From assembly GCA_913055805.1 (NCBI GenBank), contig CAJXLF010000003.1, forward strand, positions 1-64,000: DNA of 64,000 nucleotides, read 5' to 3'. Each line of letters begins with the position of its first letter. Positions within the stretch are counted from its first letter, which is position 1. Shown here in pieces: positions 1 to 39,658 of the stretch. The notes under the pieces were generated by a model. The model saw only the letters and a program-made list of their open reading frames with translations. It had not been told where the DNA came from and did no database searches. The stretch comes from an uncultured Salinisphaerales bacterium. Lineage in GTDB: Bacteria > Pseudomonadota > Gammaproteobacteria > Nevskiales > CAJXLF01. A program made the translations under genes and the position numbers.

Positions 1-75
1 TCGTTGTTTGGATGAATTCGACATCTCCATTCTGGCTCATAGAAGCCGTAAGAGGGGGGAGGTCCATGTCATTCG

Positions 76-477
76 TTATGTCTCATCTAATGCCGACCGC
101 AATCCTAATTTTTGGACAAACGGCACAAAGTCTCTATCAGTAAATAACAACGGCAGATTATTCTCTATACAAAAGGAGGCAATAATCACATCTGCCGTTT
201 TCCGTATCGTTATTCCTTTCTTTCTTAACTGGCGGTAGTTATTGGCACATTTATCGACCATATCCGTCCCAAATAACTCGAACTGCCGTAGGCTTTCTAA
301 GTATTTCTTTGCCCTGTTGTAGTCCCGGTCGTTTCGGAAGCCTTGCAGTATTTCGAGCAGTATCAAGTCCCCCATAACTACAACATCGTTTTCTAATGCC
401 CAATCTAATCGGTCGGTTTCTGGGCAGTTTTCTCCTTTGAAGTAATTTATCCATACACTGGTATCTACCAGGATCAC
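76..477 (-). CDS. vapC: VapC-type PIN-domain toxin ribonuclease
   Basis: This is a 133-residue PIN-domain protein, the usual VapC length, expected to cleave RNA in a metal-dependent way when not bound by its antitoxin. It starts MILVDTSVWI, where the first conserved acidic residue (D5) lies in the family signature. Later acidic positions appear in the ADVIIASF segment near residue 98 and in the LLFTDRDF segment near residue 115, matching the four-acid PIN active site. The start codon overlaps the end of the antitoxin gene by 4 bases (474-477), so translation is probably coupled. It is transcribed against the direction of the neighbouring attC site, which is common for toxin-antitoxin cassettes with their own promoter. 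Confidence 0.93.
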   Translation of the reverse strand: MILVDTSVWINYFKGENCPETDRLDWALENDVVVMGDLILLEILQGFRNDRDYNRAKKYLESLRQFELFGTDMVDKCANNYRQLRKKGITIRKTADVIIASFCIENNLPLLFTDRDFVPFVQKLGLRSALDET

Positions 478-668
478 TTGGCTCCCCTCATTTCATCGAG
501 GTCGCCTTCCCAATGAAGTTTTCCTTTTAAGCCTCTTATCTTTTGCTGCTTGTTCTGCCGCACCAAAAGTTTCAAGCCAAGCTCAACTGCTTCCTTCTTC
601 GTATTCAATCCAGTAGCCTTTAAGGCATCGTCCATTAACTTGTCATCAATAACTATGTTAGTACGCAT
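474..668 (-). CDS. vapB: VapB-type antitoxin
   Basis: This is a 64-residue antitoxin upstream of and overlapping the PIN toxin. The N-terminal half (MRTNIVIDDKLMDDAL) has the short beta-strand plus helix pattern of a ribbon-helix-helix DNA-binding antitoxin. The basic C-terminal half, containing GLKGKLHWEGDLDEMR, resembles the toxin-wrapping tail of VapB proteins. A GAGG ribosome-binding sequence precedes the ATG. An inverted repeat at 680-709, just upstream of the start, is a good candidate for the operator through which the VapBC complex represses its own promoter. Confidence 0.9.
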   Translation of the reverse strand: MRTNIVIDDKLMDDALKATGLNTKKEAVELGLKLLVRQNKQQKIRGLKGKLHWEGDLDEMRGAK

Positions 669-679
669 AACAAACCTCT

Positions 680-709
680 ATGTGTATAAATATAAGTACT
701 CATACACAT
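680..709. promoter_or_regulatory. Candidate VapBC operator (inverted repeat)
   Basis: Perfect 8-base arms ATGTGTAT (680-687) and ATACACAT (702-709) flank an AT-rich 14-base spacer, 12-41 bases upstream of the vapB start. VapBC pairs usually autorepress by binding such repeats. The functional role is inferred from position and symmetry. Confidence 0.55.
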
Positions 710-725
710 TATCATTGGTCATGAA

Positions 726-788
726 ACATAACAAGTCACTCAACCAGGACACCCACTAGGTGGGCGCCTGTTAGTTCAAGCGTTATGC
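726..788 (+). other. Integron attC recombination site 1
   Basis: This is a 63-base imperfect palindrome bounded by the core sites ACATAAC (726-732) and GTTATGC (782-788), which are complementary except for the outer base. Inside, a CTCAA...TTCAAGC pair and an inner CCCAC-TA-GTGGG hairpin reproduce the layout of classical short attC sites such as those of aadA-type cassettes. The recombination point would lie between G782 and T783. It closes the vapBC cassette and opens the higBA cassette. Confidence 0.85.
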
Positions 789-808
789 CCCATATTTCCG
801 CGATACCA

Positions 809-825
809 AACATAACAATTATGTT
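809..825. promoter_or_regulatory. Candidate HigA operator (inverted repeat)
   Basis: AACATAA (809-815), a 3-base centre, and TTATGTT (819-825) form a perfect 7-base inverted repeat ending 11 bases before the higB start. Position and symmetry fit autoregulation by the helix-turn-helix antitoxin encoded downstream. The regulatory role is inferred. Confidence 0.5.
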
Positions 826-836
826 ACTATTCAGAA

Positions 837-1163
837 ATGACATGGCGCATTGAGTATCCATACGAAGACGTAGAGCACTTCGTTTTGAGGTTGCAGCCCA
901 AATTAGCAGCACGGTATTTCCGGCTCACTGATCTCATGCTTGAGTTCGGTTCTGATTTGGGCATGCCGCATTCCCGCCCCATGTCTGACGGGTTGATTGA
1001 GCTTCGGATCAAAGGCCAGGAAGGCATTGCCCGTGTGTTCTATTGCACGTTGGTAGGAAAGCGCATTGTCATGCTGCATGGCTTTGTGAAGAAGTCCCAG
1101 AAAACCCCAGCCAAGGAATTACGCATCGCCAGAAATCGAATGGCGGAGGTTAAAGGAAAATGA
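837..1163 (+). CDS. higB: HigB/RelE-family toxin (phage Gp49-like type)
   Basis: This 108-residue protein belongs to the RelE-superfamily group annotated as Gp49-like or DUF891, whose members cleave mRNA, usually at the ribosome. Visible family features are the central ELRIKGQEGIARVFY segment (about residues 52-66) and the HGFVKKSQKTP segment (about residues 80-90), the most conserved motif of this group. The toxin-first order with the antitoxin overlapping by 4 bases (1160-1163) is typical of HigBA. No strong ribosome-binding sequence precedes the ATG. The gene lies fully between two attC sites. Confidence 0.88.
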   Translation: MTWRIEYPYEDVEHFVLRLQPKLAARYFRLTDLMLEFGSDLGMPHSRPMSDGLIELRIKGQEGIARVFYCTLVGKRIVMLHGFVKKSQKTPAKELRIARNRMAEVKGK

Positions 1164-1462
1164 AGCACGCTGAATTAAAGAAAAAAGCACTTTCAGATCC
1201 GGAAGTTCTTTCTGCCTATGAGGGCATGGAGACGGAGTTCACGCTCTTGCGTCAAATGCTCAAGGCTCGAAATAAGGCTGGCCTCACCCAGGCTGAGGTA
1301 GCTGCACGCATGGGCACCAAGGCACCAGCCATTACTCGTCTAGAGTCTTCGCTTAGCTCTGGCAAGCATTCGCCCTCAATAGCGACCCTGCAGCGTTACG
1401 CTGAGGCTGTTGGTTGTGAGCTTCAAGTAAAGCTGGTCAAGTCTCACGGTCATGAGGCATAA
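1160..1462 (+). CDS. higA: HigA-type helix-turn-helix antitoxin
   Basis: This is a 100-residue XRE-family protein. The N-terminal third is helical (KKKALSDPEVLSAYEGMETEF), as in antitoxins paired with Gp49-like toxins. Residues 35-85 form the helix-turn-helix (ARNKAGLTQAEVAARMG, then PAITRLES). It should neutralise the toxin encoded just upstream and repress the operon, probably at the repeat at 809-825. The stop codon lies inside the left core of the downstream attC site (1457-1463), as is common in integron cassettes where the gene nearly fills the cassette. Confidence 0.9.
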   Translation: MKHAELKKKALSDPEVLSAYEGMETEFTLLRQMLKARNKAGLTQAEVAARMGTKAPAITRLESSLSSGKHSPSIATLQRYAEAVGCELQVKLVKSHGHEA

Positions 1463-1522
1463 CAATTCGCTCAAGCCGGGACGCCCAGCTTCGCTGGCCG
1501 CCCCTTAATTCCGGCGTTGGGT
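1457..1522 (+). other. Integron attC recombination site 2
   Basis: This 66-base palindromic site is bounded by GCATAAC (1457-1463) and GTTGGGT (1516-1522), the latter a perfect match to the GTTRRRY consensus. Inside are CTCAAGCC and GCCCAGC-TTC-GCTGGC, a stable central hairpin. The AACAATTC start and the TTAATTC segment before the right core are the usual short-attC layout. The stop of higA is inside the left core. The next cassette starts at T1517. Confidence 0.9.
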
Positions 1523-1552
1523 GTCAACCCACCCACTACAGGGAATCGAATT

Positions 1553-2251
1553 ATGAGTAAGAAAATAATTGGCAAGATTACGTTACTGATTACCGTGGCC
1601 CTGTATTCATTGCCATCTCTAGCCGCAGACAAGCAAATCGGAATCCTGGTTTACGACAAAGTTTTGAGCAGCGACGTAACTGCGCCAGCCGAGGTGTTTG
1701 GCGTTGCTACACGAAAATCGTGGTTCTCCAATTATCAGGTTTTATTGATTGGTGTAGAGGAAGATGCTGCCGTAGTCACCACAGAGGAAGGCATTCGCCT
1801 GACAGTTGATAAAACGATCTATGACAATCCCAAATTAGATGCGCTGATAGTAACCAGTTCTTATGTCATGGACACCCTCTTTGAGAACGAGGATTTAACC
1901 AAATTCCTCAAAAATCAGGCCGAAACCGTTTCTTGGTTGGCAAGCAACTGCTCTGGTGCTTTTTTGTATGCTCACGCAGGCCTGCTTGATGGCTACACAG
2001 CAACTACGTGGGCGGGTGGTGAAAAGCAATTGCAGCGAGAATTCCCCGAGATCAACGTAATCGAAGATCGCAATGTTGTTGTTGATCGCAACAGAATTTC
2101 CAGCAATGGCGGAATTCCTTCTTATCAGGGGGCTCTTGTTTTACTGGCTCAGATGAGCAGCGAGGGCAAGGCTAAAGAGGTCTTTGAAACGATTCAACTA
2201 AATCGCCTTATTCCCTGGTCTGAGGTAACCAGATATTTTCCTGAAAAATGA
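1553..2251 (+). CDS. Exported DJ-1/PfpI (GATase1-like) family protein
   Basis: This 232-residue protein starts with a cleavable signal peptide (KKIIGK, hydrophobic stretch, LPSLAA), so it should act in the periplasm. The rest is a DJ-1/PfpI fold like the N-terminal half of AraC-type regulators: the strand IGILVYDKV, the DVTAPAEVFGVA segment, and a nucleophile-elbow cysteine in ASNCSGAFL. The family's usual histidine after the ATT segment is replaced: the sequence reads ATTWAGG. Catalysis is therefore uncertain. The ATG at 1553 is preceded by an AGGGA sequence and suits the signal peptide better than the in-frame start at 1517, which lies in the attC site. Enzymatic role unknown. Confidence 0.82.
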   Translation: MSKKIIGKITLLITVALYSLPSLAADKQIGILVYDKVLSSDVTAPAEVFGVATRKSWFSNYQVLLIGVEEDAAVVTTEEGIRLTVDKTIYDNPKLDALIVTSSYVMDTLFENEDLTKFLKNQAETVSWLASNCSGAFLYAHAGLLDGYTATTWAGGEKQLQREFPEINVIEDRNVVVDRNRISSNGGIPSYQGALVLLAQMSSEGKAKEVFETIQLNRLIPWSEVTRYFPEK

Positions 2252-2282
2252 CTGCGCGTTATCAGCTTGGGTGCTTATTGAT

Positions 2283-2307
2283 GCCCAACAAATCGTTGCG
2301 CAGGACG
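2283..2307 (+). other. Half attC site, end of cassette array
   Basis: GCCCAAC (2283-2289) followed by AAATCGTTGCGCAGGACG has the expected left-half layout of an attC site and lies 31 bases after the stop of the DJ-1-like gene. No matching GTTRRRY right half follows at the usual distance; instead the sequence runs into a DUF4325 gene remnant. I read this as the last cassette's attC, truncated at the join with the chromosome. Confidence 0.5.
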
Positions 2308-2309
2308 TT

Positions 2310-2615
2310 TGAATGCTTGTCTGAACCGATCTCGCTCTGCCAATCATCCGCCTAACTGCAGAACTGGCTTTTATAAAGTTGATTTCCATTTCTGTGTACT
2401 TTAAGGGAAATACCCCGAATACCTCATCGCTAAAAGCTTGGCCGATTTCACTTACACCCTCAAAATCAACGATTACGATTGTGAGTCGATCAACCGCTGT
2501 CAGTAAATGTTTAGCCTGAGAACGCGATACCAGCCTCTCATTCCCGTATTGTGCAAGTCTCACCCGAACTACAGTTTTTTAATACCGTATACATCTTCCG
2601 CTTTTTCGAATTCAG
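2310..2615 (-). pseudogene. Remnant of an ATPase/DUF4325 (STAS-like) protein
   Basis: Reading leftward from 2563, a GTG-started frame gives RLAQYGNERLVSRSQAKHLL and later DFEGVSEIGQAFSDEVF, the clear signature of the DUF4325 STAS-like domain. Further upstream, in another frame (2580-2615), the sequence TEFEKAEDVYGIKK looks like the segment that normally precedes this domain. The two join if one base is added in the run of six A/T at 2575-2580. The N-terminal ATPase part expected in the long form of this family is absent, because the plus-strand membrane gene starts at 2639. So this is a truncated, frameshifted fragment. The exact C-terminal end is unclear. Confidence 0.62.
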
Positions 2616-2638
2616 TTAGCAGCAGAAGGAAAATTCCC

Positions 2639-3034
2639 GTGCAATTAATTAACCGTAATATCAAATGGCTCATGCTCGTTGCCGGCATGCTTACATGCAG
2701 CATGGTTCTGGCCGTTTTCTCTCCAGAGTTGGCCCTGAAAAATACTTTTGGCGCTTCCATACAAGACCCTCTGGCCGAGGTGGTGGTGCGTAGTTGGGGC
2801 TCCTTGATTACCCTGGTGGGCGCCATGTTGATTTACGGCGCGTTTCGCCCTGTTCATCGAAATCTGATTCTGCTCATCGCCACTTTGGGAAAAGCGATTT
2901 TTGTCGGCCTGGTGGTTACTGTCGGCAGTCAGTTCCTCGGCAAGGCGGCCTTGACCATAGCCTTTGATGCTACGGTAGTCGTCCTTTTCACACTCTATCT
3001 CTTGAGTCCGCAAAACAGAGCCGCTGAGGGATAA
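2639..3034 (+). CDS. Small four-helix membrane protein, unknown function
   Basis: This 131-residue protein probably starts at the GTG at 2639: an AGAAGGA ribosome-binding sequence lies 8 bases upstream, whereas the longer frame from 2507 would run over the DUF4325 remnant. Four hydrophobic segments are visible, at about residues 9-27, 51-68, 74-96 and 101-122, with short polar loops. I do not recognise the family; its size and layout resemble small inner-membrane DUF proteins. No operon partner is evident: the next gene follows after 74 bases that contain a short inverted repeat (CGACTG 3044-3049, CAGTCG 3057-3062). Confidence 0.7.
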   Translation: MQLINRNIKWLMLVAGMLTCSMVLAVFSPELALKNTFGASIQDPLAEVVVRSWGSLITLVGAMLIYGAFRPVHRNLILLIATLGKAIFVGLVVTVGSQFLGKAALTIAFDATVVVLFTLYLLSPQNRAAEG

Positions 3035-3108
3035 CACCCAATCCGACTGCCGCTTACAGTCGCCGGCCCTAACCCGGATATTAGGCGACTCGAATCCGGA
3101 GCAAAGCC

Positions 3109-3882
3109 ATGACAATGAATCGCAGAAACTTTCTACGGCTGGCGACCGCTGGCGCATTACTGAATACCCGATCGGTGGATGCCATTGCGGGGCAAGCCAA
3201 AGCTGCAGGTATCAAGGCCATCGCATTCGATGGATTTCCGATTCTTGATCCCCGCCCGATAGCTTCCAAGGCAGAAGCGCTTTTCCCTGAGCACGGGGCG
3301 ACCCTCATGCAGGCATGGCGTATCCGTTTATTCCAATACCAATGGTTACGCGCGCTGTCAGACCAGTATCTGGACTTTCTTAAACTGGCGGATCACAGCC
3401 TGACGTTCGTTGCAAAACAGCTTGAGATTGAGCTCAGCCGGGAAAAGCGACAGAGCCTGTTGTCAGCCTGGGAAAATCTGCAGGTATGGCCGGATGTTCC
3501 TGATGCCGTGGAGCACCTGCGTGAGGCAGGATTGCGACTGGCCTTTCTGTCAAACATGACGGCCGGAATGCTTACTCGCGGACTGGATAACGCCGGCTTG
3601 AGGGATGCATTCGAAGCGGTAATCAGCACAGACCGTATCCGGACGTACAAACCCGATCCGCGCGCTTATGCGCTGGGCATGCAAGTGCTGCAGTTACAAA
3701 AGCAGGAAATCCTGTTCGCCGCCTTCGCCGGTTGGGATGTGGCCGGAGCCAAATGGTTTGGTTATCCAACATTCTGGGTAAACCGGACGAATAGCCCGGC
3801 TGAAGAGCTGGGCGTTGAGCCCGATGCTATCGGCACTGACCTGGCAGCACTCGTGCACTTTTCGACTGCGAAAACCGTCTAG
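3109..3882 (+). CDS. Tat-exported HAD-superfamily (haloacid dehalogenase type II-like) protein
   Basis: This 257-residue protein starts with a twin-arginine signal (NRRNFLRLATAGALL), so it should fold in the cytoplasm and act in the periplasm. The mature part follows L-2-haloacid dehalogenases: nucleophile Asp in AIAFDGF, motif II in FLSNMT, motif III lysine in YKPDPRAY, and GWDVAGAKWFGYPTFWVNR. The usual GTL after the nucleophile reads PIL instead. Real dehalogenases of this type are mostly cytoplasmic, so substrate and activity are uncertain. A CGGAG sequence precedes the ATG at 3109; a second ATG at 3115 would keep the Tat motif. Confidence 0.85.
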   Translation: MTMNRRNFLRLATAGALLNTRSVDAIAGQAKAAGIKAIAFDGFPILDPRPIASKAEALFPEHGATLMQAWRIRLFQYQWLRALSDQYLDFLKLADHSLTFVAKQLEIELSREKRQSLLSAWENLQVWPDVPDAVEHLREAGLRLAFLSNMTAGMLTRGLDNAGLRDAFEAVISTDRIRTYKPDPRAYALGMQVLQLQKQEILFAAFAGWDVAGAKWFGYPTFWVNRTNSPAEELGVEPDAIGTDLAALVHFSTAKTV

Positions 3883-3918
3883 AATGTGACCGGTTAAGCT
3901 GACCGACCGGAGCAAGGA

Positions 3919-4113
3919 ATGAGCAGGTACAGAGGTATTACGTTGAACGAACGCCTGTTGGTGTCCGGTCTTCTCGCGAAATTCGATGAGGCGATAAAAA
4001 CCGGCAGCCAGGACGAGGCAGTGAACATTCTGCTTAAAACCGGTTTGAGAAAAGTCGAAGCCGAGGAAACAGCGAAAGCCATCCTCAACAACCCCAAGGA
4101 ATACGGTTATTAA
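3919..4113 (+). CDS. Small conserved hypothetical protein (64 aa)
   Basis: This short helical acidic protein has a start region YRGITLNERLLVSGLL and an end ILNNPKEYGY, patterns I have seen in small uncharacterised proteobacterial proteins. No membrane segment or signal peptide is present. An AGGA sequence precedes the ATG. It lies 36 bases after the HAD gene and 15 bases before the GFA-family gene, so the three may share a transcript. Function unknown. Confidence 0.75.
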   Translation: MSRYRGITLNERLLVSGLLAKFDEAIKTGSQDEAVNILLKTGLRKVEAEETAKAILNNPKEYGY

Positions 4114-4128
4114 CTTGTTGGAGCAATC

Positions 4129-4530
4129 ATGTACACCGGTAGTTGTCTCTGCGGCTCGATCCAGTACCAGATAGAAGGAGAACTGGAACCTGTTCAGCTC
4201 TGCCATTGCCGGCAATGCCGCAAGGCGCAAGGCACGCCTTTCGTGTCCAACATTCCGGTAGCAGCCTCGGCTTTCAGAATCACCTCCGGTGAGGACGCCA
4301 TGAAGGAATATGAATCCACGCCAGGCAAAATCAGGGCTTTCTGCGGTCGCTGCGGCTCGCCGATTCTCAGCCGCCGTACGACGATGCCGGAAGTGGTGAG
4401 AATACGCGCCGGCACGATCAATGAAGATTTACCGGTAAGGCCGGCCTTTCACATCTTTGCCGCACACAAGGCCAACTGGTGGGAAATACAGGATAGCCTG
4501 CCGCAATACAGTGATTTTCCCGCTCAGTGA
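4129..4530 (+). CDS. GFA-family zinc protein (Gfa-like)
   Basis: This 133-residue protein belongs to the GFA family, named after a glutathione-dependent formaldehyde-activating enzyme, although most members have no proven activity. Zinc-binding cysteines are visible in GSCLCGSI near the N-terminus, CHCRQCRKA near residue 25 and FCGRCGSP near residue 66. The C-terminal part (HIFAAHKANWWEI) is also typical. It is a soluble cytoplasmic protein. It lies between the 64-residue protein and the thioesterase with short gaps, suggesting one transcription unit. Confidence 0.9.
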   Translation: MYTGSCLCGSIQYQIEGELEPVQLCHCRQCRKAQGTPFVSNIPVAASAFRITSGEDAMKEYESTPGKIRAFCGRCGSPILSRRTTMPEVVRIRAGTINEDLPVRPAFHIFAAHKANWWEIQDSLPQYSDFPAQ

Positions 4531-4551
4531 AAAAGCACCCGAACTGAAAAA

Positions 4552-4965
4552 ATGGTAACGAAAGAACAATTGATCGCTTTCTTTGCGGATGATTTCCCGC
4601 AAGTCGACCTGGTCATTGAAAGCCTGGGAAACAAGTCGGCCACCCTGCGCAAGAAGATTGATCACAACCACCTGCGCCCCGGCGGCACGGTTGCCGGACC
4701 GGTTTTAATGGAAATTGCCGATGCGGCCCTGTATGCGGCCATCCTGGGTGAAATAGGGCTGGTGCCCCTGGCAGTGACCACCAATCTGAATATCAATTTC
4801 CTGCGCAAACCTGCCCCCGACAAAGACGTGCTGGCTGTATGCTCGCTGATCAAGGTGGGCAGAACGCTGGCCATTGGCGAAGTTTCGATCTACTCGGAGG
4901 GCATGTCCGAACCCGTCGCTCATGCAGTGGGCACTTATTCCATACCTCCTGACAGAACCGGCTGA
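4552..4965 (+). CDS. PaaI-type hotdog thioesterase
   Basis: This 137-residue single hotdog-fold protein is probably an acyl-CoA thioesterase. The conserved block RPGGTVAGPVLMEIADAAL (about residues 43-61) carries the active-site acidic residue on the central helix, and TTNLNINFLRKPAPDKD follows, as in PaaI/YbgC-like proteins. The C-terminal GTYSIPP strand closes the fold. It follows the GFA gene by 21 bases, and a DUF3955 frame begins immediately after or overlapping its stop. The acyl substrate cannot be told from sequence. Confidence 0.85.
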   Translation: MVTKEQLIAFFADDFPQVDLVIESLGNKSATLRKKIDHNHLRPGGTVAGPVLMEIADAALYAAILGEIGLVPLAVTTNLNINFLRKPAPDKDVLAVCSLIKVGRTLAIGEVSIYSEGMSEPVAHAVGTYSIPPDRTG

Positions 4966-4973
4966 GAGCTGCC

Positions 4974-5180
4974 ATTAACAAGTTACTGATAGCAACATGC
5001 GCACTACTGTTGGCAGGAGCAGGTTCCCTGTTGCTGGAAAACACTTTTTATCAGTATGTCGACGAACAGGGTTTTCTGCATGAAAGCCTTTTCCTGCCCC
5101 TGGGTCTGCTCTGCATCTCGCTCGGCATTTCTGGATTATTCTTTCTACTGACTCGAAGACTGTGGGCGCTTCGCCGATAA
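4974..5180 (+). CDS. DUF3955 two-helix membrane microprotein, non-standard start
   Basis: The open frame after the thioesterase encodes about 68 residues with two membrane segments (LLIATCALLLAGAGSLLL and a leucine-rich second one) joined by the loop YVDEQGFLHESLFLPLG. That loop is the DUF3955 signature. The frame has no ATG, GTG or TTG start. The best candidates are ATT at 4974, 5 bases after GAGAG, or CTG at 4962, overlapping the thioesterase stop. Translation is therefore probably weak or coupled to the upstream gene. Inner-membrane location is predicted; function unknown. Confidence 0.7.
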   Translation: MNKLLIATCALLLAGAGSLLLENTFYQYVDEQGFLHESLFLPLGLLCISLGISGLFFLLTRRLWALRR

Positions 5181-5289
5181 TGCGGGAAAGTACGGTTTTC
5201 AGGATTTACCCATAAAGTTTCACAAGCAGCGTCTTTGAGGCATTGACGCACGCCTATGCGCAGGACGCTGTATTGGCCGGGAGCATTAA

Positions 5290-6519
5290 GTGAGCAGAAT
5301 CGCCTATTTCTATAGAAAGATACTTCGCGCCTGGGCAAGTGGCACCTTGTTGGAAAAATCCACCCGCTTTCTTTCGACCCGCATCAGCCGGCCATTCGAA
5401 GTACTTGCCGGTTTTCTGCTGCTATCAACCGCTGACAAGAAGTTGAACGTACGCGATGGCTTTTCAGATCATCGTCAGCGCCCCGATCATCGCCGCAGCA
5501 ACCCCGAGCATATTCAAAGAATCATGGCGGCGTACAAGAAAGCGAAACAGGCTCAGGAGCACGCTCCGCAAGCCTTGCAGGTAAGGGGGCTGTGGTCCGA
5601 ATGGATATCGGTCAATTACGGCAAGCTGATTGCCGTGCTGGAAGCCGGGGATGCAGAGCAACTCTCGGCCATGCTGGAAAACCTGTTCAGGGAGCCCTGC
5701 ACAATCGGTGCCGGTGGATACGACAGTTATTTGCGCTATAAATCATTGCTCGGCAGCCTGTACATCAAGTACGTATGGAGCAAATACAGGAATTGCCTGC
5801 TCAGCATGGACCTGGATCCACGGGACGTGGATTTTCCGAATGTGGGTAATCAAACAGGCGTTTATCTTGATAGAAAAATCATATCCATAGAGACTCTTCG
5901 CCATGCCTATCACGCAGTCGAAATGCGTAACCTGCTGACTGACGTACCCGGCGCAGTGTGTGTAGAGATCGGAGCCGGCCTCGGCGGCCAGGCTTTCCAA
6001 AGCTTGCAGATCGGCAAGAACCAGATATCGAAATACATACTTTTTGACATACCCGAAGTGGCTGTTCTGAGCTCCTACTTTCTGCTATCGGCTTTTCCTG
6101 AAAAGAATATCCGGCTTTTTGGCGAGGGAGAGATATCCACTTCACCGGATGAGGCATTCGATGTAGCCGTCTTCCCTCACTTCTGCATCCAACAGTTAGA
6201 AGACAAGTCTGTTGATCTGTTTTACAACTCCTGCAGTTTTTCTGAAATGGATGGCGCCTCTTCCAGGGAATATCTAAAAGTGATTGAGAAATCCTGCCGC
6301 AGATATTTCCTGCATGACAATCACGATGTCAGATTGGAGTTCAAGGAAACTGACGGTTCGATTTCCACCAACGTTATCGGCTCGGAACTACTGCCCGACC
6401 CGGCGTTGTTCAAACGCATTTACAAAAAGCCCCGCGTGCATGGCCTTCCCGAGGATCGGCCGTTTATTCAATATGAATATTTGTATGAGCGAATCGCCCG
6501 GCCCGACGTTTCTTCGTGA
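5290..6519 (+). CDS. Putative sugar O-methyltransferase-like protein
   Basis: This 409-residue cytoplasmic protein starts at GTG 5290, after a GGGAG sequence. The C-terminal half is a SAM-dependent methyltransferase: VCVEIGAGLGGQAFQSL (near residue 220) is the glycine-rich SAM loop, followed by YILFDIPEVAVLSSYFL and DLFYNSCSFSEM. This arrangement matches the putative sugar O-methyltransferase family found near polysaccharide gene clusters. The first 100 residues are variable and may bind the acceptor. No polysaccharide genes are nearby, so the substrate is unknown. Base composition is slightly AT-richer than downstream genes, which may mean it was acquired. Confidence 0.78.
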   Translation: MSRIAYFYRKILRAWASGTLLEKSTRFLSTRISRPFEVLAGFLLLSTADKKLNVRDGFSDHRQRPDHRRSNPEHIQRIMAAYKKAKQAQEHAPQALQVRGLWSEWISVNYGKLIAVLEAGDAEQLSAMLENLFREPCTIGAGGYDSYLRYKSLLGSLYIKYVWSKYRNCLLSMDLDPRDVDFPNVGNQTGVYLDRKIISIETLRHAYHAVEMRNLLTDVPGAVCVEIGAGLGGQAFQSLQIGKNQISKYILFDIPEVAVLSSYFLLSAFPEKNIRLFGEGEISTSPDEAFDVAVFPHFCIQQLEDKSVDLFYNSCSFSEMDGASSREYLKVIEKSCRRYFLHDNHDVRLEFKETDGSISTNVIGSELLPDPALFKRIYKKPRVHGLPEDRPFIQYEYLYERIARPDVSS

Positions 6520-32911: not shown

Positions 32912-33907
32912 ATGCGCGCAATTCAGTTCAGCCGATTCGGCAACCCAGCGGAAGTTCTCGAACTGGTCGATCACGACCCCGGCTACCCCGCCGACGGCGA
33001 GGCGTTGGTCACTGTCGAGGCCACACCCATCCATCCCTCGGACCTGCTCACGGTCAGCGGTGAATACGGCCTGCTCCCGCCCTTGCCGGCGACACCCGGC
33101 AACGAAGGCGTCGGCCGGGTGCTGGAAGCCGGCCGCGGAGTCAGCCACATCAAGACAGGCGATCTGGTTCTTCTGCCACTGGGCAGCGGCACCTGGTGTC
33201 AGCAGATGCGCAGTAGCGCCGAAGAACTCGTCAAGCTCCCGGACAACACCGACCCGGTGCAGTCGAGCATGATGACGATCAACCCGCTCACCGCAGACCT
33301 GCTGCTCGGCGACATTGTCGATCTGCAGCCGGGTGACTGGATCATCCAGAATGCCGCCAACTCCTCGGTGGGCCACTACCTGGCTGCCCTCGCCAAACAG
33401 CGCGGCATCAAGACTATCAACCTGGTACGCCGTGGCGGCGGTGTGGAACTGCAGCTGAATGAGCTGGGCGCTACCGAAGTCATCGTGGACAAGGGCCAGG
33501 ATATTCCCGACCAGGTCAAAGCCATTGTCGGCGGCGACCCTGTACGACTGGCGATCGATGCCGTGGGTGGCGCAGGCAGCAATGTGCTGGCGCGCTGCCT
33601 GAGCGAAGGCGGCACCCTGGTCAGCTATGGCCGCATGTCCGGACAGGCTTGTGAAATTGATCCCAGCCTGCTGATTTTCCGTGACATCCGCGTTACCGGC
33701 TTCTGGCTGCTCAACTGGTTGCGCGAGCATGGCCGCCAGGCGATGGTGCAGCGCCTACACAGTCTGAGCCAGCATGTTGCAGCGGGTCGCTTGCGCGCGG
33801 AAATAGCCGGCACGTATCCTCTGGAACGCATCCGCGATGCTGTGCGGCAGGCCCAGCAATCCAGCCGCGACGGCAAGGTCGTACTTACACCAGAAGCGCA
33901 TTGGTGA
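32912..33907 (+). CDS. Zinc-free MDR oxidoreductase, MECR/quinone-reductase-like
   Basis: This 331-residue member of the medium-chain dehydrogenase/reductase superfamily starts at ATG 32912 after AGGAG. N-terminal GroES-like domain: ATPIHPSDLLTVSGEYG and PATPGNEGVGRVLEAG. Rossmann domain: LQPGDWIIQNAANSSVGHYLAALAK, with the NSSVGHY signature of 2-enoyl thioester reductases (mitochondrial MECR/Etr1 type). The zinc-binding cysteines of alcohol dehydrogenases are missing. It may reduce enoyl thioesters or quinones with NADPH; the substrate is inferred from family only. Confidence 0.85.
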   Translation: MRAIQFSRFGNPAEVLELVDHDPGYPADGEALVTVEATPIHPSDLLTVSGEYGLLPPLPATPGNEGVGRVLEAGRGVSHIKTGDLVLLPLGSGTWCQQMRSSAEELVKLPDNTDPVQSSMMTINPLTADLLLGDIVDLQPGDWIIQNAANSSVGHYLAALAKQRGIKTINLVRRGGGVELQLNELGATEVIVDKGQDIPDQVKAIVGGDPVRLAIDAVGGAGSNVLARCLSEGGTLVSYGRMSGQACEIDPSLLIFRDIRVTGFWLLNWLREHGRQAMVQRLHSLSQHVAAGRLRAEIAGTYPLERIRDAVRQAQQSSRDGKVVLTPEAHW

Positions 33908-33914
33908 CAGCCTG

Positions 33915-34232
33915 ATGATTATCAAGATTGAAATCGACGTAAAACCGGAGGAGCTGCGGCGCTTCCTGGGACTGCCGGATGTCGGCGCTCTGCAGGAAGA
34001 CATGGTCGACTACCTGCGCCTTAAAATCGGCAGTGGCATCGAACACTTTGACCCCGCCCAGTTCCTCAAGGAGAACATCGAGACCGGCAGCAAGGCCTGG
34101 AAGCGCCTAATGTCGATGGCCAACTCCTTTACCACGGAAGAACCTGAACAACCGGCTCCGAAGAAACGCAGCACCACACGCAAATCCACTGGCAGAAGCG
34201 GCACCCGCACGCGCAAGACCAGCAAGTCCTGA
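33915..34232 (+). CDS. DUF6489-like small protein with basic tail
   Basis: This 105-residue protein starts at ATG 33915 (MIIKIEIDVKPEELRRFLGLPDV). The pattern IDV-PEE-RRFLGLPDV and a following helix (GIEHFDPAQFLKENIETGSKAWKRL) match what I recall as DUF6489, small proteins with phasin-like amphipathic helices. The last 30 residues are rich in Lys, Arg, Thr and Ser (KKRSTTRKS, RTRKTSKS), suggesting nucleic-acid or membrane-surface binding. It sits 7 bases after the MDR gene and 24 bases before the GAF-SpoIIE gene. Function unknown. Confidence 0.7.
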   Translation: MIIKIEIDVKPEELRRFLGLPDVGALQEDMVDYLRLKIGSGIEHFDPAQFLKENIETGSKAWKRLMSMANSFTTEEPEQPAPKKRSTTRKSTGRSGTRTRKTSKS

Positions 34233-34256: not shown

Positions 34257-35993
34257 ATGTCTTCCGCCCCCACTCCGGAAACCGACGCACCACCGCTAAC
34301 AGTGGGGGCGCGTACGCCTGAAAGCGATTATCTCGATCTCATGGCGGACCTGACGCGCGACTATGCCACCACTGACGACCTGGCCAGCGTGCATCTCAAG
34401 GCGCTGGGGCGCATACGCGATGCCATGCGAGTTGCGGGCAGCTCGCTGTTCCTGCTGGAAAACAACGACAGTGAACTGGTTTGCCACGCCTGCATAGGCC
34501 CGGTGGACATCACCGGCCTGCGCCTGCCGGCCGGCTCCGGCATTGTTGGCCGCTCGGTAGAGAAAAACGAAGTGCAATGGGTTGCCGACGTCGACAAGGA
34601 CCCCGACTTCTTCTCGGATGCGGACGCCAGCTCCGGCTTTATCACGCGCGCGGTTCTGGCGGCCCCGATGAGTATTCACGGCCGCACCCTGGGAGCTGTA
34701 AGCGTGGTAAACCCGCTTGCACCGGACGGTGAGCAGGTACGCCAGTTCAGCCAGCGGGATATTGAACTGATGCGCAGCCTGGCCAGCGCCGCGGCCATGG
34801 CCATGAACAACGCCGACATGACCCGCGAGCTGCTGAGCAGGGAAAGAGTACGTCAGGAACTGGTTCTGGCGGCAAAGGTGCAGCGCAGCCTGCTGCCCGA
34901 TTGCAGCCGCCTGCCGGCCAACGTTTGTGGCATCAGCCATCCAGCGCGGGAAATGTCGGGTGACTTTTATGACGTCGTACCCCTGCCGGACGGCCGTCTG
35001 TATTTTGCGGTGGCGGACGTATCCGGCAAGGGACTTAACGCCGCCCTGCTCATGGTCAAGACCACCAGCCTGTTTCGCATGCTGGCCAAATCCGTGCCGG
35101 AGCCCGGCCGGCTGCTTGCCATGCTCAATCACGAACTCTGCGAAACCATCACCGCCGGCATGTTCGTGACCATGACGGTGGGCGTTTACGAACCCGACAC
35201 AGGGCGGGTTTGCCTCAGCAGCGCTGGCCACATGCCTACCCTGCTACGTCATGCACACGGCCGTTTCCGGCAACTTTCCAGCGCCATGCCGCCGCTGGGT
35301 ATCCTCTGCGAAACCGAGGACAACCGTTATCCGGAAGACGAGCTGCTGCTTTGCAGCGGACAACTCTATCTCTATACGGATGGTGTCACCGAAGGCCGCC
35401 TGGCCGACGGCAGCGAGCTCGAGCTGGAGGGCTTCTGCCGACTACTGGATGAACTGGCGGATGAAAACCTGCACGATCGTCTCGAATCCATTGTTAACCG
35501 CCTGGCCGACGATTCCCGTCCATTGCGCGACGACGTCACACTGCTTGGACTGGAGACTCCGGAGAGCCGGCAACCCGGCCTGCCGCTGAGTTTCCGAGTC
35601 ACCGCCATACCCGACCGGCTGGCGCTGGTACGTGACCTGATACACCACGCCTTTGCCGCTCTGGACTATCCGGCGGAACTCAAGGACAACATCGTGCTGG
35701 CGGTGGATGAAGCCTGCCAGAACATTATCCGGCATGCCTACGAAGGCCAGCCCGAAGGCGAGATCGAAGGATCTCTGGACCTGAGCGGCAGAACCCTGAC
35801 CATCCGCCTGCGTGATCAGGCGCCCACGGTCCCGCCCACTGCCTGCAATCCCAGACAGTCGTCTGAACTGAAGCCCGGCGGGTTGGGCAACCAGTTCATC
35901 AACAGCATCATGGACAAGGTCTACTTCGAAACGATCAACGATTCACAACAACGTCACAGCGGTAACTGTCTGGTTATGTTAAAAGAGCTGTAA
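34257..35993 (+). CDS. GAF - SpoIIE phosphatase - HATPase (anti-sigma kinase-like) switch protein
   Basis: This 578-residue cytoplasmic protein has three modules. Residues about 35-190 are a GAF sensor (LPAGSGIVGRSV, AAPMSIHGRTLGAVSVVNP). Residues about 200-435 are a PP2C-type SpoIIE/RsbU phosphatase: MSGDFYDVV, VADVSGKGLNAALL, YTDGVTEG and DDVTLLGLE carry the metal-binding aspartates. Residues about 445-578 are an RsbW/SpoIIAB-like HATPase with N-box VDEACQNIIRHAYEG and a glycine loop GGLGNQFI. Phosphatase and kinase in one chain should toggle a STAS protein between phosphorylated and free forms; a STAS gene starts 18 bases downstream. Confidence 0.93.
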   Translation: MSSAPTPETDAPPLTVGARTPESDYLDLMADLTRDYATTDDLASVHLKALGRIRDAMRVAGSSLFLLENNDSELVCHACIGPVDITGLRLPAGSGIVGRSVEKNEVQWVADVDKDPDFFSDADASSGFITRAVLAAPMSIHGRTLGAVSVVNPLAPDGEQVRQFSQRDIELMRSLASAAAMAMNNADMTRELLSRERVRQELVLAAKVQRSLLPDCSRLPANVCGISHPAREMSGDFYDVVPLPDGRLYFAVADVSGKGLNAALLMVKTTSLFRMLAKSVPEPGRLLAMLNHELCETITAGMFVTMTVGVYEPDTGRVCLSSAGHMPTLLRHAHGRFRQLSSAMPPLGILCETEDNRYPEDELLLCSGQLYLYTDGVTEGRLADGSELELEGFCRLLDELADENLHDRLESIVNRLADDSRPLRDDVTLLGLETPESRQPGLPLSFRVTAIPDRLALVRDLIHHAFAALDYPAELKDNIVLAVDEACQNIIRHAYEGQPEGEIEGSLDLSGRTLTIRLRDQAPTVPPTACNPRQSSELKPGGLGNQFINSIMDKVYFETINDSQQRHSGNCLVMLKEL

Positions 35994-36011
35994 CAGGGGG
36001 AGCGTCTGAGT

Positions 36012-36314
36012 ATGGAATACCGCGTGGATATCAACGATGGCCAGGCCATCGTTTACCTGACCGGCGAAATCGATCTGGACAAATCGCCGGCAGCGCGTGC
36101 CGCATTGTTGCACTGCGTGACTCAGCACAGCGCAGTACACGTGGACATGTCGGCCGTCGATTACATCGACTCTTCCGGGGTCGCGAGTCTGGTTGAGGCC
36201 CTGCAGAAAGCCCGCAGCCGCAAGGTCGAATTTCATCTGCGTCAGGTCAGCCCGGCCACGTTGAAGGTGCTGGCCCTGGCCCGGCTGGACCGGGTCTTCA
36301 GCATTCTCGACTAA
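36012..36314 (+). CDS. STAS-domain anti-anti-sigma-like / MlaB-like protein
   Basis: This 100-residue single STAS domain matches SpoIIAA/RsbV-type antagonists: AIVYLTGEIDLDKSPAARAAL and DMSAVDYIDSSGVASLVEAL. The phospho-acceptor motif D-S-S-G is intact, the second serine (residue 55) aligning with the site phosphorylated in SpoIIAA. It is located between the SpoIIE/HATPase gene and an Mla-type permease gene. In E. coli the STAS protein MlaB binds the ATPase MlaF and is needed for transporter activity, so this protein may be both the phospho-switch target and the MlaB equivalent. Confidence 0.92.
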   Translation: MEYRVDINDGQAIVYLTGEIDLDKSPAARAALLHCVTQHSAVHVDMSAVDYIDSSGVASLVEALQKARSRKVEFHLRQVSPATLKVLALARLDRVFSILD

Positions 36315-36327
36315 GCACCCCACAGCC

Positions 36328-37116
36328 ATGCGCGCGTTCATCGAGGGGATAGGCCGGCGCAGCATCAGCGGCATCACCGAATTCGGTCAGGCTGCAGCGA
36401 TCCTGCTCGAATCCATCTATTGGCTGTTTATGGGGCCCGGACAACGCCAACCCGTACGCTTGCGCGCAGTCTTTGCCCAGGCCATGGAAATCGGCATCGG
36501 CGCCCTGCCCATTGTTACCGTACTAAGCCTGGCCATCGGCATCATGCTGGCCATCCAGGGTATCTATTCGCTGCGTGTGTTTGGCGCCGAACACAATGTC
36601 ACCCTCGGCATTGCCCTTTCGGTGACCCGCGAATTCGGCCCCATGATTACCGGCATCCTGGTTGCCGGCCGCACCGGTTCAGCGCTGGCGGCACGCATCG
36701 GCACCATGAAAATCAACCAGGAGCTGGATGCCCTGACAGTGATGGGCATTCAACCCGTACGTTACCTGGTGGCCCCTGCTTTACTGGCCATTCTGATCAT
36801 GCTGCCTGCGCTCAGCTGGTTTTCTGACTGCGTCGCCCTGTTCGGCGCAGGGCTGTACGTCTCCATGGAACTGGGCATGTCGCTGGGCGCTTATTTCGAG
36901 CAGCTGGTGGAAATCCTGACCGTGGATGATCTCATGCACGGGCTGGGCAAGAGTCTGCTGTTCGGCATTCTGATCGCCCTGATCGGCGTCATCAATGGCG
37001 CCAATGTCAGTGGTGGCGCGGAAGGTATTGGCCATGCCACCACACGCTCGGTGGTGCATGCCATTTCCGCCATTGTCATTACCGACATGCTGTTCACCTT
37101 CCTGCTGGCCCGCTGA
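36328..37116 (+). CDS. MlaE-type lipid ABC transporter permease
   Basis: This 262-residue permease has five to six membrane helices. The block VTREFGPMITGILVAGRTGSA (about residues 92-112) followed by RIGTMKINQELDALTVMGI is the signature of MlaE/Ttg2B permeases that pair with MCE proteins to move phospholipids across the cell envelope. The gene begins 13 bases after the STAS gene and is followed within one base by the ATPase. It differs in gene order from canonical mlaFEDCB (ATPase first). Confidence 0.93.
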   Translation: MRAFIEGIGRRSISGITEFGQAAAILLESIYWLFMGPGQRQPVRLRAVFAQAMEIGIGALPIVTVLSLAIGIMLAIQGIYSLRVFGAEHNVTLGIALSVTREFGPMITGILVAGRTGSALAARIGTMKINQELDALTVMGIQPVRYLVAPALLAILIMLPALSWFSDCVALFGAGLYVSMELGMSLGAYFEQLVEILTVDDLMHGLGKSLLFGILIALIGVINGANVSGGAEGIGHATTRSVVHAISAIVITDMLFTFLLAR

Positions 37117-37117
37117 C

Positions 37118-37924
37118 ATGAACAGCCAGGCGGACACGGCTATCTCGGTAAAGGATCTGGTTGTCTACTACGGCGACCGCAAAATCCTGAAAGAAGTGAG
37201 CATGGATGTCCGCGAGGGCGAGATCATGGTCATTATGGGCGGCTCGGGCTCCGGCAAGAGCACCCTGCTGCGTCATCTGCTGGCGCTGGAACACCCCCGC
37301 TCCGGCGCCATTCACATGCTGGGCCATGACATCACCACAGCCAGCCAGACCGACATGCTGGAAATCCGCAAGAAAATCGGCGTGGCTTTCCAGTTTGGCG
37401 CCCTGCTCAGTTCACTCAGTGTCGGTGAGAATGTCATGCTGCCCCTGCTGGAACATACACGCCTGGACCGCAGCACCATGGAAGTGATGCTGCGCCTGAA
37501 ACTGGAGGTTGTGGGCCTTGCCGGATTCGAAGCGCTGATGCCGGCCGAACTGTCGGGCGGCATGACCAAACGCGCCGCCCTGGCGCGGGCCATCATCATG
37601 GACCCGCAGTTGCTATTTCTGGATGAGCCCAGCGCCGGCCTGGACCCGGTGGTCGCCGCCGCACTGGACGACCTGATCCTGCAGCTGCGCGACGCCACCG
37701 GCATGACCATGGTGGTAGTCACACATGAACTGGACAGCGCCTTCAAGATCGCGGACCGTATTACGGTGCTGGACAAGGGAGAGATCGTGGAAGCCGGCAA
37801 CGTTGAACAGGTCCGCGGCAGTACGAATCCACGCGTGCAGAATCTGCTGAACCGGCGGACCGAGGAGATCGTTACCGATGTGGACGAATACCTTGAACGC
37901 CTGACCGGCCTGCGCATCGACTAG
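37118..37924 (+). CDS. MlaF-type lipid ABC transporter ATPase
   Basis: This 268-residue ATPase shows Walker A GGSGSGKSTLLRHLL, Q-loop VAFQFGALLSSLSV, signature ELSGGMTKRAALARAI and Walker B LLFLDEPSAGLDPV. The SGGM(T/Q)KR variant of the signature is characteristic of MlaF/Ttg2A. A C-terminal extension (NRRTEEIVTDVDEYLERLTGL) may contact a regulator such as the STAS protein. It lies 1 base after the permease stop and 12 bases before the MCE gene. Confidence 0.94.
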   Translation: MNSQADTAISVKDLVVYYGDRKILKEVSMDVREGEIMVIMGGSGSGKSTLLRHLLALEHPRSGAIHMLGHDITTASQTDMLEIRKKIGVAFQFGALLSSLSVGENVMLPLLEHTRLDRSTMEVMLRLKLEVVGLAGFEALMPAELSGGMTKRAALARAIIMDPQLLFLDEPSAGLDPVVAAALDDLILQLRDATGMTMVVVTHELDSAFKIADRITVLDKGEIVEAGNVEQVRGSTNPRVQNLLNRRTEEIVTDVDEYLERLTGLRID

Positions 37925-37936
37925 GGGCAACAACAA

Positions 37937-38905
37937 GTGACGCAATACCGTATCAATCAGTTTGCCGTGGGCCTGTTCGTACTGGCCGGGCTGGTGACCT
38001 TGTTCCTGATGCTGGCCATGCTGACCGGCCGCACCGGTCCTACGCACAGCTATTTCACCGTGCTCAATAATGTAGCCGGCGTGCAGTATGGCACCCAGGT
38101 GGTCTATGAGGGCTACCCCATCGGCCAGGTACAGAATATCGAACCCGAACCCGGTGACGAAGGCCTGCAATTCCGCCTGGAACTGGCCGTGGACAGGAAC
38201 TGGCAGATTCCGGACGACAGCGTCACGGTTGTATCGTCGCCCAGTGTGCTGTCAGCCAAGACCATTCTGATTCGCGGCGGCAAGAGCCAGAATTATTTCG
38301 AACCCGGCGACACCCTGCCTGCGATTGGCAGCGCCAGCATGTTCGGCGCCCTGCAGGACATGGCCCGCACCTTTGCCGACCTCAGCAGTAACGGCCTGTT
38401 CCCGCTGATTACCAATCTCAACAACCAGATCACCAAGGCCGGCGATCTGCTCAGTGGCGACCTGCAAGCGCTGGTAGCGAACCTGCGGGAAACCTCGGGT
38501 GAGCTGCAGACGCAGACTCCGGACATACTTAATAATGTCCAGGCTTTCTCGCGCGACCTGGCCGCCGCCGGCAAGAACATTGACCGCGCCCTGAACGAAG
38601 ACAACCTGGCGGCCATTGATCGCATCCTGGCCAATGCCGACCAGACCTCGGCCCGGCTGGCCGGCATCAGTCAGGACATCAGAACCGTGGTCACCGACCT
38701 GGGCCCCAACATTGATGCCAGCGGCAAGGATCTGCGTTTCAGTCTGGAAACGGTGGCGCGGCATATCGACTCACTTACGCACAACCTGGACGCCGCCAGC
38801 CTGCAGTTGCTGGAATTCAGCCGCCAGATTCGCAATAACCCCAGTGTCATTATCCGCGGTACCGAACCCGGCAGTGGCGAGGAAATCCGGGGGCCTAACG
38901 AATGA
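37937..38905 (+). CDS. MCE-domain (MlaD-like) substrate-binding protein
   Basis: This 322-residue protein starts at GTG 37937. One N-terminal membrane anchor (about residues 8-30, FAVGLFVLAGLVTLFLMLAM) is followed by a single MCE domain (about residues 38-120: GVQYGTQVVYEGYPIGQVQNI and the LSAKTILIRGG strand). A long helical C-terminal part with repeated heptad-like leucines (residues about 150-300) follows, as in elongated MCE proteins that form periplasm-spanning tubes. Its stop overlaps the next gene by 4 bases. Substrate is presumably phospholipid. Confidence 0.92.
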   Translation: MTQYRINQFAVGLFVLAGLVTLFLMLAMLTGRTGPTHSYFTVLNNVAGVQYGTQVVYEGYPIGQVQNIEPEPGDEGLQFRLELAVDRNWQIPDDSVTVVSSPSVLSAKTILIRGGKSQNYFEPGDTLPAIGSASMFGALQDMARTFADLSSNGLFPLITNLNNQITKAGDLLSGDLQALVANLRETSGELQTQTPDILNNVQAFSRDLAAAGKNIDRALNEDNLAAIDRILANADQTSARLAGISQDIRTVVTDLGPNIDASGKDLRFSLETVARHIDSLTHNLDAASLQLLEFSRQIRNNPSVIIRGTEPGSGEEIRGPNE

Positions 38906-39510
38906 CAAGACGGAACTCATGTTTGTTGCTGGCGGCAAGTCTGCTGCTTGGCGCCTGCGTGGCCAGCCCCCCGCCGCCCAAGGAAGTTTTCTATCGCTTC
39001 CTGCCCATCGAAACACAGCCTTTACCCGCGCCCGCACTGGGCGGAAGTGTCCGGGTGGAACGACTGAAGGCTGAAGGCATACTGAGCGAACGGGCGTTGC
39101 TGTTCAGCCAGGCGCACAGCACGGGCAAGCTGGAGCAGTACCGTTACCATCACTGGTCGGAGCCACCGGCTCATTTACTCACCCAGGGCCTGATTCATTA
39201 TCTGCAGGATATGCAGGCCGCGGACAAAGTTATCGCGGCGGATATCCGCACTGAAGTCGCCTACAGCATTGACGGCGATGTACTGCGCCTGGAACGCATC
39301 CTTGATGATGGTACGGACCGGGTCGTGCTGGAACTGGCGTTGAGACTGCAACAGTTCAGCAACCGCGAGCTTGTGCTGCAGAAGCGTTATCTGGAAACAG
39401 TGGACGTTGAGAGCGACAACATGACCGATGTCATCAATGCCTTCAGTCAGGCGCGTCAGCGTATCTATATAAGTTTCGCGGAAGACCTGAAGGCCCTGCC
39501 TTCCCCTTAA
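38902..39510 (+). CDS. ABC-type transport auxiliary lipoprotein (PqiC-like)
   Basis: This 202-residue outer-membrane lipoprotein has a lipobox LLLGACVAS, so Cys18 would be lipidated. The mature part (VFYRFLPIE, GGSVRVERLKAEGILSERALLF, YRYHHWSEPPAHLLTQGLI) matches the family of auxiliary lipoproteins that work with MCE transporters, such as PqiC. The +2 residue after Cys is Val, compatible with outer-membrane sorting. It ends the operon, which is followed by a repeat and a terminator. Confidence 0.88.
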   Translation: MTRRNSCLLLAASLLLGACVASPPPPKEVFYRFLPIETQPLPAPALGGSVRVERLKAEGILSERALLFSQAHSTGKLEQYRYHHWSEPPAHLLTQGLIHYLQDMQAADKVIAADIRTEVAYSIDGDVLRLERILDDGTDRVVLELALRLQQFSNRELVLQKRYLETVDVESDNMTDVINAFSQARQRIYISFAEDLKALPSP

Positions 39511-39626: not shown

Positions 39627-39658
39627 AAAGGGCCAGCCGGCTACCCGACTGGCCCTTT
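39627..39658. terminator. Bidirectional rho-independent terminator
   Basis: AAAGGGCCAG (39627-39636) pairs with CTGGCCCTTT (39649-39658), with T-rich sequence on the right and A-rich on the left. It lies between the convergent lipid-transport operon and the phasin gene and can serve both. Confidence 0.9.

Follow-up and report, generated by a model that had tools for sequence, protein, structure and literature searches.

An Mla-type lipid transport operon whose MlaB subunit is probably a partner-switch phosphoprotein

Why should an operon for lipid transport carry a sensor phosphatase and a kinase? The question is raised by a locus in a 64,000-nucleotide stretch of DNA (hereafter the window) from an uncultured Salinisphaerales bacterium (contig CAJXLF010000003.1). 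Six genes, all on the forward strand and either 1 to 18 bases apart or slightly overlapping, encode a GAF-SpoIIE-HATPase protein, a STAS protein, an MlaE-type permease, an MlaF-type ATP-binding cassette (ABC) ATPase, an MCE protein and a lipoprotein (Table 1). The initial annotation of the window had listed this gene set, and it is borne out: all genes are present, tightly packed and matched by Pfam, and the D-S-S-G motif of the STAS protein is intact (D53-S54-S55-G56). We propose that the operon probably encodes a lipid transporter of the Mla type (Mpc-like) in which MlaB is a partner-switch phosphoprotein, released from MlaF by phosphorylation.

The proposed switch has three steps. Like MlaB, the STAS protein would dock on MlaF at its helical face and C-terminal tail, and would keep the ATPase attached to the permease. 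The HATPase domain would phosphorylate Ser54 on the same face of the STAS protein, which could then no longer bind MlaF, and transport would go down. The SpoIIE domain, gated by GAF (by HDOD or a receiver domain in other species), would remove the phosphate and bring the active complex back. That the STAS protein is phosphorylated and binds MlaF, which way the switch works and what it senses are inferences.

Both halves of such a system are present in the window. The transport half is an Mla-type MCE transporter set of MlaE permease, MlaF ATPase and MCE protein. The regulatory half is a partner-switching set: a SpoIIE phosphatase, a HATPase_c_2 kinase and a STAS protein with an acceptor serine, with the catalytic residues intact. 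Across about 130 homologues the acidic residues of the phosphatase (D236, D254, D375, D425 and D426) are at least 97% conserved, and so are the N-box, G1 and G2 residues of the kinase. The model of the HATPase domain matches SpoIIAB (1th8; Z 17.4, root-mean-square deviation (rmsd) 2.8, 130 residues). The STAS model matches both RsbV (6m36; Z 17.2, rmsd 1.5, 101 residues) and Pseudomonas aeruginosa MlaB (7cha; Z 12.9, rmsd 2.0, 96 residues). Mutual information between STAS and HATPase places 12 of the top 20 pairs at the expected face, where 2.6 are expected, an excess that two big clades may cause.

Which serine would carry the phosphate? Ser55 had been named in the initial annotation. Alignment with TM1442 (DSAG), RsbV (DSTG) and T52 of Escherichia coli MlaB (DTGG) points to the first serine of the motif instead, a position which we take to be the equivalent of SpoIIAA Ser58. 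Hence, judging from these alignments, the phospho-acceptor is probably Ser54 and not Ser55.

Is the STAS protein an MlaB at all? It could be the antagonist in ordinary anti-sigma control, with the HATPase domain as the anti-sigma factor and the Mla genes only co-transcribed with their regulator. Family resemblance favours this alternative. The STAS protein and the HATPase domain are most like SpoIIAA/RsbV and SpoIIAB/RsbW; TIGR00377 (anti-sigma factor antagonist) matches the STAS protein at 6.3e-19, while the NCBIfam model for MlaB (NF033618) reaches 7.4e-5 and 23.1 bits, below its cut-off of 90. In Nevskia, the GAF-SpoIIE-HATPase and STAS genes (L068, L071, L081) lie apart from the Mla operon and are followed by vWA and extracytoplasmic function (ECF) sigma factor genes, as read at two loci. 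Nevertheless, we consider anti-sigma control improbable. The window shows no sigma factor gene adjoining the operon, in agreement with the initial annotation. In the loci read, where no systematic scan for sigma factors was made, the recurring neighbour of the module is MlaE or MlaF. Furthermore, without this STAS protein the operons would have no MlaB.

The source genome (3.38 Mb, 96% complete) illustrates the last point. The window MlaE is its sole PF02405 match, and the window MlaF is its sole ATPase match at E<=1e-36. There are four STAS_2 matches, including the operon STAS. The other three are a small protein whose gene lies in a chemotaxis cluster, a domain at the end of a SulP transporter and part of a glutaminase-like fusion, so the operon STAS is the only MlaB candidate found for the one Mla transporter found. 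The glutaminase-like protein (C2:341302) combines its STAS domain with an apparent cyclic-nucleotide-binding domain in one chain.

If the STAS protein is a regulated MlaB, then regulator and transporter should travel together. A STAS profile search returned 80 named loci, whose record titles cover Gammaproteobacteria, Rhodospirillales, Myxococcota, Nitrospirota and further groups. Many of the records come from metagenome bins, so that some taxon labels may be wrong. Kinase genes are present at 79 of these loci, phosphatase genes at 76, MlaE genes at 76, and a kinase together with MlaE or MlaF at 75. Conservation of DSSG in this set is partly circular because the search pattern contained it. 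A second survey, of 369 gammaproteobacterial genomes, used a STAS profile without a fixed pattern and found matches at E<=1e-12 in 63 genomes. For the 57 strong matches with readable context, the kinase is present in all 57, the phosphatase in 50 and MlaE or MlaF in 52. DSSG occurs in 139 of 140 distinct loci. Near-identical gene order recurs in several phyla, and is thus conserved far beyond chance. The SpoIIE gene, whose linkage in relatives the initial annotation had left to a survey, is therefore linked almost always and not rarely. Kinase and phosphatase joined in a single chain, as described there, hold for the window protein and for 55 loci, but are not the general layout, since the two are separate in 70. 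The sensor also varies between loci (GAF, HDOD or a response-regulator receiver). A core that is conserved while its input domains change is characteristic of a signalling module. No relatives of the STAS protein were found in the viral contigs and plasmids searched.

Which transporter subunit does the STAS protein follow? Searches of the 369 genomes centred on MlaE and on MlaF are not conditioned on STAS. Close MlaE relatives occur in 46 genomes (at least 49% identity and more than 250 bits, followed by a sharp fall to 170 bits), and 43 of the 46 adjoin this STAS gene. The exceptions are G149, G383 and one copy in G166. At the STAS-less loci of G149 and G383 (L208, L211, L236), a transporter of the same family is directly preceded by two other genes, one LemA-like and the other small and conserved. 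The STAS-less copy in G166 (L206, contig C45) has an HD-GYP-type gene (362-1471) directly before mlaE, which hints at a different regulator.

The MlaF subtype of the window occurs in 60 genomes, and 57 of these also carry the STAS gene. Two genomes have only STAS, three only the MlaF subtype and 307 neither; one of the STAS-only cases (G297) and one of the MlaF-only cases (G095) lie at contig ends. Shared ancestry is not taken into account in the corresponding Fisher value of 1e-60, and we placed the cut-offs at visible gaps after inspection. Of the 57 genomes with both, 14 combine STAS and this MlaF subtype with a canonical MlaE that comes with MlaD and MlaC (for example at L136) and is 30-36% identical to the window MlaE in the loci compared. 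In trees, the MlaF proteins of both contexts are intermixed, and the two MlaE lineages split with 100/99 support. In G387, the sole MlaF detected adjoins an HDOD-SpoIIE gene, a kinase gene and STAS, whereas the sole MlaE lies on a different contig; MlaF and MlaE are split in this way in G106 and G253 too. Genomes with a stand-alone module (Nevskia, G126, G202, G424) nonetheless carry the MlaF subtype at another place. These variants, splits and stand-alone modules indicate that the module follows the ATPase, as expected of MlaB. In the canonical-type mla operons of these genomes we found no STAS besides this one. That the STAS protein tracks one MlaF subtype even when unlinked argues further against anti-sigma control. 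In three genomes (L199, L200, L201) the module lies away from Mla genes; its neighbours there are a gene with an FHA domain and another PP2C phosphatase gene.

Does MlaF keep the surface for MlaB? E. coli MlaB contacts two MlaF chains, one through its helical part and the neighbouring one through its C-terminal tail; Tyr261, Leu265 and Leu266 of this tail fill the groove between the two proteins, and MlaB Thr52 lies at the centre of the interface (PMC7367683). The tail motif Y-x3-L is present in 94 of 94 MlaF tails, and the window spacing, Y258-x3-L262, equals that of Y261/L265 in E. coli. A short helix is predicted at MlaF residues 255-263. The MlaF model aligns up to residue 268 with the MlaF chains of 7ch8 (Z 35.0, rmsd 3.5, 256 residues) and 6xbd (Z 34.5, rmsd 3.1, 258 residues), whereas for most other ABC ATPases in the structure list the alignment stops near residue 250. 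The predicted local distance difference test score (pLDDT) of the tail is 63-75, a modest value of the kind expected where a segment packs against another subunit. Taken together, the sole MlaB candidate, its co-occurrence with one MlaF subtype and the preserved MlaF tail support the suggestion of the initial annotation that the STAS protein is the MlaB equivalent.

Would phosphorylation turn transport down, as we propose? The STAS protein could be a phosphorylated MlaB with the opposite sign: the phosphorylated form, or the hydroxyl itself, might promote MlaF ATPase activity, or the kinase might work by sequestering the STAS protein and not through the phosphate. Kinases of the SpoIIAB type also sequester the unphosphorylated antagonist. 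E. coli MlaB T52A still binds MlaF, but ATPase activity is lost (PMC5016091), which fits a promoting hydroxyl. In contrast, T52E reduces MlaF binding, and the residue sits at the centre of the interface; the authors left phosphoregulation open (PMC7367683). An opposite sign is in our view unlikely.

Several observations weigh against a phosphorylation-controlled MlaB that releases the ATPase. Since T52A is bound yet ATPase-inactive, the Thr52 position may affect catalysis in addition to binding and need not work as a plain binding switch. For STAS and MlaF, mutual information is not enriched at the expected interface (2 of the top 20 pairs, where 2.2 are expected). A read-through model of the window kinase and STAS, with a mean pLDDT of 91.5 and a predicted template modelling score of 0.62, does not establish their docking. 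In a few genomes the module does not adjoin Mla genes, and one of these (G395) is without the MlaF subtype; G149 and G317 have the MlaF subtype without this STAS.

A third alternative makes the kinase domain the direct inhibitor of MlaF: it would bind MlaF, and the STAS protein would free MlaF by binding the kinase, in anti-sigma style. This is the classical logic of such modules, and the kinase adjoins the STAS gene in all 57 strong loci of the class survey. However, the STAS protein would then be no MlaB, leaving these transporters without one, and STAS-MlaE fusions elsewhere tie STAS to the transporter (PMC12436622). We regard direct inhibition by the kinase as very unlikely and retain the STAS protein as the probable regulated MlaB.

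How does the operon compare with known systems? Like E. coli MlaFEDCB, it has an MlaE permease, an MlaF with a C-terminal tail, an MCE protein and one STAS protein as the sole MlaB candidate. In contrast to E. coli, where the operon of mlaB contains no kinase gene, the window STAS is RsbV-like, carries DSSG and comes with a sensor phosphatase and a kinase of its own. No MlaC gene is found in the window operon either; the MCE protein is long, and a PqiC-like (ABC_trans_aux) lipoprotein stands in MlaC's place. In this respect the transport half follows the same plan as Brucella Mpc (MpcE, F, D and A), which also combines MlaE and MlaF with a long MCE protein and a PqiC-like lipoprotein (PMC12436622). 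There, however, the STAS domain is fused to the N-terminus of MlaE in a four-gene operon without kinase or phosphatase, whereas in the window it is a separate gene with a phospho-motif. We sampled 20 loci with fusions of the Brucella kind. DSSG occurs in none of the 19 with a readable STAS domain (motifs such as DTAG and DTSG are found), and no recognised kinase gene lies close upstream at these loci. This loss of DSSG in the absence of the kinase speaks for the proposed switch. As with Thr52 in E. coli, the residue corresponding to Ser54 still bears a hydroxyl in most fusions. Hence, the hydroxyl alone is not diagnostic; Ser-Ser together with a linked kinase is.

The regulatory half resembles RsbU-RsbW-RsbV and SpoIIE-SpoIIAB-SpoIIAA in its SpoIIE phosphatase, HATPase kinase and STAS protein with D-S-S-G, but here there is no sigma factor and the predicted end target is an ABC ATPase. 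Rv1364c of Mycobacterium tuberculosis is part of sigma-factor signalling and is not known to be tied to lipid transport genes. Like the window protein, it has phosphatase and kinase domains in one chain (3ke6). SiaABC-SiaD of P. aeruginosa likewise has a PP2C phosphatase, a kinase and a STAS-like protein, and its output is not a sigma factor; phosphorylation of SiaC controls a diguanylate cyclase pathway, not a transporter (PMC7647112). For RbaV-RbaW-RbaY of Rhodobacter capsulatus no sigma factor has been found, and the STAS protein is the apparent output (PMC3999984). Whether this switch acts on an MlaF is worth asking.

Table 1. Features of the operon and its surroundings in the window.
Feature	Position	Strand	Details
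GAF-SpoIIE-HATPase protein (PP2C-type phosphatase and RsbW-type kinase)	34257..35993	+	578 amino acids
GAF domain of this protein	~34377-34805		Pfam GAF_2 2e-11
SpoIIE domain of this protein	34986-35558		Pfam SpoIIE 9.6e-43
HATPase domain of this protein	35601-35981		Pfam HATPase_c_2 1.6e-22
STAS protein, proposed phosphorylatable MlaB	36012..36314	+	100 amino acids; Pfam STAS_2 7.7e-18
Ser54 codon, predicted phospho-acceptor, first Ser of D-S-S-G	36171..36173	+	Alignments
MlaE-type permease	36328..37116	+	Pfam MlaE 2.4e-68; TIGR00056 over cut-off
MlaF-type ATPase with C-terminal extension	37118..37924	+	ABC_tran 1.2e-31
MlaF C-terminal extension, residues 245-268, Y258-x3-L262	37850..37921	+	Tail alignment, model
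MCE (MlaD-like) protein, long C-terminal part	37937..38905	+	322 amino acids; Pfam MlaD 2.5e-10; TIGR00996 1.6e-22
PqiC-like lipoprotein (ABC_trans_aux)	38902..39510	+	Pfam ABC_trans_aux 4.8e-11; overlaps MCE stop
Terminator-like hairpin between operon and convergent gene	39627..39658	.	Consensus scan

Consensus scans found no sigma-70 promoter-like site, and terminator-like hairpins such as the one in Table 1 occur at a count near chance level. A gene for a small DUF6489 protein (33837-34232) ends 24 bases before the SpoIIE gene; we dropped it as a member of the module, as no homologue lies beside the module in the compared relatives. The guanine-cytosine content of window positions 1-6000 is 46-53%, compared to about 60% in the rest of the window, which suggests a different origin for that part.

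What is new here? Partner switches whose output is not a sigma factor (SiaABC, PMC7647112) and MlaB are both already known; within the literature searched, their joining is new. We found no report that links SpoIIE or HDOD kinase-phosphatase modules to Mla, in a search whose coverage excluded most subscription journals and preprints, so that an earlier mention is possible. Two papers on MlaB propose phosphorylation of Thr52, and neither found cellular evidence or named a kinase (PMC5016091, PMC7367683). The operon supplies a candidate kinase, phosphatase and signal domain for regulation of the Thr52 type, and the set can be rebuilt in vitro. It thereby makes the explicitly open question of MlaB phosphoregulation testable. 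The idea of the initial annotation holds up, with Ser54 as the probable acceptor and with its scope widened from a single genome to an operon class found in many.

For this class we lean, somewhat more cautiously, towards a general statement: there is a widespread class of lipid ABC transporters in which a dedicated sensor phosphatase and kinase recruit or release the ATPase by way of an MlaB that can be phosphorylated. The phosphoregulation guessed for E. coli MlaB would then exist in this class, and MlaB proteins that lack both DSSG and a kinase would be relatives under different regulation or none. Legionella needs a related mla operon, one with a STAS-type MlaE, to survive in water (PMC10117105); the switch may thus plausibly serve to control lipid transport during starvation. 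If true, a partner switch would act directly on an ABC ATPase, and outer-membrane lipid transport would be under post-translational control in many Gram-negative lineages.

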